DNA of 64,000 nucleotides from Bifidobacterium reuteri DSM 23975 (GTDB taxonomy: Bacteria > Actinomycetota > Actinomycetes > Actinomycetales > Bifidobacteriaceae), in assembly GCF_000741695.1 (NCBI RefSeq), contig NZ_JGZK01000003.1:345864-409863 (forward strand), in the 5' to 3' direction. Each line of letters begins with the position of its first letter. Within the stretch, counting starts at the first letter, position 1. The notes under the pieces were generated by a model. That model worked only from the letters and a program-made list of their open reading frames with translations. It was not told the DNA's origin and ran no database searches. Shown here in pieces: positions 36,876-37,560 of this stretch. Position numbers and translations under genes: made by a program.

Positions 36876-36917
36876 CAAGCGCCTTCCGGCGTGTGTGTCC
36901 CTCATGCGCTTCCTGAT

Positions 36918-37001
36918 GGTACCGGTTGGGTGGTGCCGACTGTGTGGTATCGATTGAGTGGTTCCGGTTGTGTGGCGTCGACTGTGTGGTGTTGATTGGG
37001 T
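36918..37001. repeat. Six tandem 14-bp units
   Basis: Six head-to-tail 14-base units with consensus GGTRYCGAYTGNGT begin 42 bases after the PHP stop: for example GGTGCCGACTGTGT at 36932 and GGTATCGATTGAGT at 36946. A partial seventh follows. They end 11 bases before a good -35 hexamer (37013). No coding role is apparent. Confidence 0.75.
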
Positions 37002-37012
37002 GGCGCAGGCTA

Positions 37013-37042
37013 TTGACATGAATTGATTTCTGCCGGCATAAT
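37013..37042 (+). promoter_or_regulatory. Promoter reading into the TGCAGGT array
   Basis: TTGACA (37013-37018) and CATAAT (37037-37042) with an 18-base spacer, a good sigma-70-type pair. No gene starts within 550 bases downstream, so it would transcribe the repeat array at 37070-37337, alone or as a long leader to the galactoside locus. Confidence 0.55.
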
Positions 37043-37069
37043 TCACAACACTGCTTTCGGATACGGAGC

Positions 37070-37337
37070 CTGTTTTACCTGCAACTGCCGGCGCAAAGCC
37101 GTTCTGATTACTCTTCTGCAGGTGAAACAGACACAATTACGAGGCCAACATGGTCGGTTCTGATGGTGCGGCGCGGCACTGCAGGTGGAACAGGTACAAA
37201 TAAGACGACTCTGTGCAGGTGGAACAGGTACAAATAAAGGGGCTGCAGGTAAAACAGTACTAGTTATGAGGATTATTGGCCTCTAACTGGCACTGTTCTA
37301 CCTGCAGTCCCTATTTACGATGCCTGTTTTACCTGCA
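37070..37337. repeat. Seven-copy TGCAGGTRRAACAG array in both orientations
   Basis: The 14-mer occurs forward at 37117, 37180, 37214 and 37244, and reversed (CTGTTYTACCTGCA) at 37070, 37293 and 37324. Neighbouring copies are often 30-34 bases apart, and several are followed by a GTACAAATAA-like tail. The variable positions are only the two purines. Forward and reversed copies can pair, so a transcript would be heavily structured. It lies in the 724-base gap before the galactoside binding-protein gene. I do not recognise it as a known riboswitch, CRISPR or iteron set. Confidence 0.8.
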
Positions 37338-37504
37338 CGCGGCAGGATTGGGATCTCTGTTCCGGGGTCCAGGGTTCGCAGGATTCAGATCCTGGCGCTA
37401 GTGGTCTGTTCCCCGCCAAGTATCGTGATTCGGCGTTGTGTTCGGCATTGCGGCATGCGGAGGCTCCCGTGGTTTGGGAAGGAAAATGAGGCGTGTCGCG
37501 CGGT

Positions 37505-37560
37505 TTGACATATTGATACACAGGTGTATCATCATAGGTGTTGGTACACGGATGTACCAA
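37505..37560 (+). promoter_or_regulatory. Promoter and two operators for the galactoside operon
   Basis: TTGACA (37505-37510) and TATCAT (37527-37532) with a 16-base spacer. The palindrome GATACAC-AG-GTGTATC (37515-37530) covers the promoter, and a second, TTGGTACA-CGGA-TGTACCAA (37541-37560), lies at the likely transcript start. Two such sites are typical of LacI-family repression, and a LacI-type gene ends this operon (43442). Confidence 0.7.

Follow-up and report, generated by a model that had tools for sequence, protein, structure and literature searches.

A gene-free array of phased, inverted sites within a 64,000-nucleotide stretch of DNA (hereafter the window) is one copy of a dispersed repeat. 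Covariance searches and a motif-agnostic scan revealed 47 such elements in 14 of 189 Bifidobacteriaceae genomes. The kind of repeat is already known, namely non-autonomous dispersed repeats; the architecture is new. We tentatively favor, with a little less than even confidence, the reading that the array is a non-autonomous mobile (MITE-like) element whose seven units are predicted binding sites of a single recombinase or transposase acting in trans. This reading rests on the recurring layout, the hairpin, the ~11-base spacing steps, the patchy distribution, the empty orthologous gaps, and the likeness of two copy pairs that stops at the outermost sites. A recombination target had been among the suggestions of an earlier note on this DNA, and it is the one we rank first. 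Throughout, the window's own genome is G000 and other family genomes carry G numbers, while C numbers denote contigs of a genome and L numbers individual loci.

The window array comprises seven exact matches to TGCAGGTRRAACAG, four forward and three reverse, in 268 bases. The outer site R1 (37070..37083, minus strand) is divergent from F2 (37117..37130, plus), with the two starts 47 bases apart by the 14-mer and 41 by the hexamer. Two further plus-strand sites follow, F3 (37180..37193) and F4 (37214..37227). Next come the left and right arms of a central hairpin, F5 (37244..37257, plus) and R6 (37293..37306, minus), and the short arm ends with R7 (37324..37337, minus). The F5-R6 pair forms a palindrome (37243..37307) that measures 55 bases from hexamer to hexamer and whose arms co-vary between copies. 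Allowing up to two mismatches, the window contains 9 matches to TGCAGGTRRAACAG against 1.04 expected, and none of 100 shuffles reaches 9. The seven copies described in the earlier note are thus exact, oriented as it said and beyond chance, and its forward and reversed copies do form inverted repeats. The array occupies a 615-base intergenic stretch (36876..37490) that measures only 47–61 bases in three relatives and holds, besides the array, a 14-bp tandem repeat and ~150 bases more. This imperfect tandem repeat, of the TGGTNNCGATTGNG type, spans 36917–37000 directly before the array, inside the stretch absent from the relatives.

Within its own genome the array has many counterparts. TGCAGGTRRAACAG with up to one mismatch occurs at 29 places, and besides the window there are six more arrays of the window word and one array of another word (C6b; TGGGCA in register). 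Measured between hexamer starts, the site order and spacing are R1-41-F2-63-F3-34-F4-30-F5-55-R6-31-R7. The full seven sites appear in one order in the window, C1b, C6 and C14 copies, with C6 showing 52 in place of 41 and a mismatch in one of its seven sites. R1 is missing from C1a, C13 runs from F4 to R7 only, and the degenerate C17 array was left out of the 47 elements. Six arrays, the window and five clusters, have a common layout and unlike spacer DNA. Sites are kept while spacers differ among copies of one genome, which simple decay of dead copies would not predict.

Across the genus, the exact 14-mer and the array part company. The 14-mer occurs in 24 of 111 other genomes (28 places), and the 27 loci examined were each a single hit (up to one mismatch) and were rejected as arrays; 22 of the 27 lie in one shared context, presumably SufB/SufD-like by translation. 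A BLAST search of the window array in the genus gave, outside its own genome and among the matches listed, pieces of up to 45 bases. Nevertheless, a looser pattern found arrays in G015, G053 and G074, although the exact 14-mer had suggested none outside the species. In 112 genomes it hit 30 times and the backward pattern 9 times; five of the 30, in G031, resemble CRISPR repeats, and singles in G002, G045, G057, G082, G091 and at C6:212367 of the own genome are unconfirmed or coding-looking. A reversed-sequence control is invalid here because reversal preserves the layout. An exact tandem pattern run over a genome contig collection gave two hits, both rejected: by eye, one is an intergenic repeat of Clostridia and the other a collagen-like gene.

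Two covariance models found most of the elements. Model R1, built from 11 rows and searched over 112 genus genomes, matched nine of them at E 0.01, G075 included. Model R2, built from 42 matched rows that include both strands of many elements, matched 14 of 189 family genomes at E 0.001, one from another genus; G035, G037, G047, G111 and G160 were first found by it. Training rows match their models by construction, as does the F4-to-R7 stretch of the window (37214..37337; E 1.7e-25 and 3.7e-22), a training row of both. The models fix 30-55-30 and reward pairing, a bias that to some degree selects for those spacing classes and for the hairpin; the spacings 63, 34 and 41 lie outside what the models fix. 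At the sensitivity of model R2, 175 of 189 genomes gave no match, and the same search missed at least one element (L187). The motif-agnostic scan, with 0.3–1.3 control hits per sampled set, added L187, G053h and G053i, the latter two from loci already included in the analysis. Over 394 kb of G075 it returned two rows, L187 as a new element and another due to chance, over 400 kb of G044 three rows of coding appearance, and over 340 kb of G000 contig C3 none. The distribution is patchy among related genomes. Lack of conservation of motif or spacing in related strains, which the earlier note named as a refutation, was not borne out: the layout recurs in 14 of 189 genomes, although the motif changes between species.

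The site unit spans ~14–30 bases, and its first six bases constitute a word that differs between genomes. GCAGGT is the word of G000, G053, G015, G070 and G074; GCAGAC of G015e and G021; GCGGGC of G005 and G010a; GTGGGC of G010 and G047; and GTGGGT of G075 and G037. CTGGGT occurs in G160 and CTGGGC in G111, with TGTGCA in register in G035 and TGGGCA in register in G053g–i and G000_C6b. Copies of one genome tend toward a common word whereas genomes differ, and two words are found within each of G000, G053, G015 and G010. Arrays in G005, G010b and G047 carry the long arm at the opposite end; theirs is an identical layout viewed from the complementary strand. The TGGGCA pair h/i of G053 has other spacings (24, 29, 54 and 40–42). 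G053 also holds three arrays of two word families inside 2.5 kb (L126:9953-12370), one of them ~0.8 kb from a tmRNA gene (L121).

Site spacings often differ by about one turn of the DNA helix. Counted with no position filter, same-strand hexamer spacings measure 29–31 bases in 44 of 94 cases, 40–44 in 14 and 62–63 in 12, with 33–34 (8 of 94) and 23–24 (4 of 94) out of phase; the convergent central pair is 53–56 bases apart in 34 of 41. At a period of 10.8 bp, 31 of the 49 spacings outside 28–32 fall in step with 30, against 18.1 expected, and changes often come in steps of ~11 bases; since the copies are related, these counts are not independent. An earlier count was biased, its allowed slot positions having been set after seeing the data, and the counts given here repeat it without the position filter. 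Near-duplicates were dropped beforehand (G010a, G000_C13, G021 and G053g in the placement and filter-free spacing counts; the first three in the arm-agreement test below). Steps near one helical turn make proteins on DNA the likely readers of the array and are ill-suited to single-stranded RNA. Protein subunits lined up along one side of the helix would fit steps of this size.

Changes in the two arms of the central hairpin go together. Aligned over 11 rows, its F5-R6 helix comprises 27 pairs, of which 17 have changed on both sides. For the structure as a whole the covariation score is 0.280, a value that 0 of 500 shuffles attain; the count of both-sides-changed pairs, a weaker result, is attained by 45 of 500. 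Within a copy, the arms agree beyond the word at 0.743, compared with 0.595 (sd 0.024) after arm swapping (0 of 2000; 36 elements in eight genome-and-word groups). Outer sites F4 and R7 show no excess agreement (0.45 versus 0.45). Template switching at palindromes and the models' reward for pairing could contribute to the arm agreement. Seven hairpins picked from the 47 elements and folded as DNA gave z of -8.0 to -12.5 against shuffles, and the window array, as RNA, gave -10.6 on the plus strand and -7.4 on the minus strand.

Such folding, together with the co-varying arms, would also suit a structured non-coding RNA or a 3' element acting at the RNA level, in either case working through the central hairpin. 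Several elements lie 10–35 bases after a stop codon, and by a crude gene caller 3' ends make up 49 of the 80 gene ends that face an element, compared with 107 of 222 in the background, both in line with an RNA role. Matches on both strands say little about it, because the palindrome yields them anyway. We nonetheless regard an RNA as quite unlikely given the lack of co-variation in the outer sites, the spacing steps near a helical turn, the absence of any Rfam match and the lack of a constant promoter. The hairpin RNA suggested in the earlier note is plausible as to folding, but the spacing points to DNA.

A different account of the matching arms invokes no binding protein at all: palindromes would correct themselves when replication switches template, with the arrays left over from tandem unit duplication. 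Near-identical tandem units of 28–29 bases in G010c and the mosaic pair h/i of G053, with one near-identical arm, would fit this history. It leaves unexplained why site order and spacing recur with different words in different genomes, and we consider it very unlikely.

The array lies before the galactoside operon, as the earlier note placed it, though another promoter-like region intervenes. That region (37505–37560, by inspection) is conserved in array-free relatives and contains what we take, by eye, to be LacI-type operators. The window's LacI protein is 89–90% identical to the LacI proteins of B. saguini and B. cebidarum, the closest named relatives by this protein, and the genome is accordingly very likely that of a Bifidobacterium. 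An operator or leader of the operon would account for the upstream position and the palindromic sites. However, G032, G021 and G070 keep the same gene-to-operon junction, 47–61 bases long, without an array. With the conserved promoter lying downstream of the array, this argues that the array is not the operon's leader; other copies, moreover, adjoin unrelated genes. We give an operator or leader next to no credence, and the multi-site operator proposed earlier falls with it as far as this operon is concerned. The array had also been credited with its own promoter. TTGACA (37013–37018) and CATAAT (37037–37042), with a spacer of 18, are indeed present upstream, but a promoter-like pair stands on the upstream side in just 3 of 43 elements, the window's included, against 1.4 expected from shuffles, and so is not a constant part of the element.

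Placement shows both shared and unshared positions. By neighboring genes, array places mostly differ between related species, and for two of the seven own-genome elements listed G053 has an array at the same place. None of the six relatives aligned has an array at the C1b junction, where 103–314 bases lie between the matched flanks. Four places are common to related genomes (G015e/G021, G000_C13/G053a, G000_C6b/G053g and G005/G010a). In G075, an element of another word (GTGGGY) lies directly behind the same PHP gene as the window array, which means either two separate uses of that gap or an old position. According to the crude gene caller, 40 of 43 elements sit between called genes, two have their centers inside a called gene and one is without neighbors.

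These positions bear on the reading we rank second, a host DNA element, in which a fast-diverging architectural or silencing chromosomal protein nucleates on phased sites and copies are kept because they are useful to the host. It would explain the four common places, the sites kept across copies with unlike spacers, and a somewhat raised share of gaps between convergent genes (15 of 40, versus 23 of 111 in the background, by the same crude caller). Against this, 175 of 189 genomes give no match at the sensitivity used, places mostly differ between related species, and site words change between genomes. Moreover, at three orthologous pairs the sites are hardly better kept than the spacers (75 versus 76%, 93 versus 88% and 100 versus 98%). 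We judge a host element unlikely, though it carries some weight.

The mobile-element reading draws instead on where likeness between copies stops. G053 copy pairs b/c and h/i are 79–81% alike inside, and outside their outermost sites the flanks match at 11, 6, 13 and 5 of 30 bases. For the pairs G075_C13/C4 and G035a/b likeness ends at a site on the right only, the left end not falling at a site; alignment ends at conserved sites are in part what BLAST would give anyway. The outermost two sites are oriented as inverted copies. We found no target-site duplication, the empty sites in relatives being too diverged to set insertion ends. Two junctions differ on a larger scale. G005 has, within ~300 bases of its array, an ISL3 transposase gene on an insert of 4.7 kb (L137:3688-8406); beside the same array in G010 (L138:5405-5412) the insert is missing, with an 8-base overlap at the junction. 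An array shared by G053 and the own genome (L139:9055-9987 versus L125:10097-13949) differs in its left half and ~4 kb beyond, and a GmrSD-like gene lies on the G053 side of the differing DNA.

Genome-wide enzyme searches covered the Y1 (RAYT) transposase and PF00589, and no transposase-bearing partner element was seen. The Y1 transposase (PF01797) was found in none of 15 genomes, nine of them array-bearing (9 of the 14), and was positive in 5 of 14 control genomes. In six genomes no PF00589 gene lies closer to an array than ~9 kb and no three are adjacent; G075 has two neighboring PF00589 genes on C31, a contig on which no array was found. Besides the ISL3 gene of G005, a transposase-like gene (by eye) lies within ~300 bases of the G037a array. 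Remaining neighbors look ordinary by eye, with unrelated genes beside other copies, and a 759-residue neighbor protein in G010 has no Pfam match. Rfam gave no match to the window array, and its hits at 19 loci holding other copies were confined to tRNA and tmRNA genes. The earlier note's finding of no riboswitch layout accordingly agrees with the absence of any matching Rfam family, riboswitches included, and CRISPR and iteron layouts were excluded by inspection only. Two array queries against plasmid, phage and viral records returned only pieces at E of at least 0.1, and pattern hits in viral contigs were rejected by eye as coding repeats or an assembly-end hairpin. In the literature searched, open-licence papers only, we found no report of these arrays.

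Four kinds of known repeat and one site architecture resemble the arrays in part. MITEs are non-autonomous transposon remnants that are short, gene-free and dispersed, with inverted terminal repeats. The arrays are likewise short, gene-free, dispersed and intergenic, as a MITE should be, with inverted repeats at both ends and a patchy occurrence in relatives. In contrast to MITEs, they have multiple internal phased sites and a central co-varying hairpin, no partner transposase or target-site duplication was found, and spacers are unlike between many copies. REP/REPIN sequences are intergenic palindromes with genome-specific words and variable spacers, served by RAYT (Y1) transposases. The arrays share all three sequence traits, but no Y1 transposase occurs in the 15 genomes searched, and the geometry of their ~7 sites is fixed. 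BOX elements of Streptococcus pneumoniae are modular, dispersed and hairpin-forming, with a variable number of middle modules. Compared by features rather than sequence, the arrays match this description, except that their units are helically spaced and binding-site-like. Integron attC and attP-type sites keep structure while sequence varies and consist of a core with flanking arm sites. The arrays do the same, but no integrase neighbor was found in the six genomes searched, and their half-sites only resemble such cores. Finally, MIC/RIT of Bifidobacterium longum, as read from the printed repeat, has ends with direct and inverted copies of a word, flanking three integrase genes (PMC2430713). 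The arrays, from the same genus, also combine direct and inverted word copies; their word is another one, and there is no integrase trio among the PF00589 places of G000.

How might such a mobile element work? We propose that protein subunits would line one face of the DNA, with the long arm (R1-F2-F3-F4) and the short arm (R7) folding around the central F5-R6 hairpin. The folded complex would then cut or copy the element. Site words such as GCAGGT and GTGGGT may each be tied to a single enzyme lineage; this would account for a common word within a genome and different words between genomes. A bolder claim, possible but doubtful in our view, is that the arrays represent a new class of chromosomal DNA machine, with ~7 helically phased sites around a folding hairpin. 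Here a putative family of DNA-binding recombinases would have repeatedly changed its sequence preference, with the complex retaining one architecture throughout Bifidobacteriaceae. With geometry near-constant as the word changes, the arrays offer a natural series for studying how a DNA complex of several subunits can hold its shape while its specificity evolves. They would mark an undescribed active protein in bifidobacteria and could explain genome differences between species. If mobile, they might be turned into an insertion tool for this genus, in which engineering is difficult.

Other repeat families were met along the way. In 394 kb of G075, CCCGGGA hairpin pairs ~94 bases apart occur in four copies (L171:8685, L175:3006, L177:13487 and L184:5749). 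G044, which has no array of the window type in the sampled 400 kb or by covariance model, holds the multi-copy inverted words AACCGGGACA, GGACGCAA and CCATGGGGCGGTA (L212:2791-3040, L218:6413-6590 and L211:9200-9350). The own genome carries AACATAC/GTATGTT and GGCTGTA/TACAGCC hairpin pairs 30–38 bases apart (L194:3370-3540 and L196:12353), which are possibly further dispersed palindromes.
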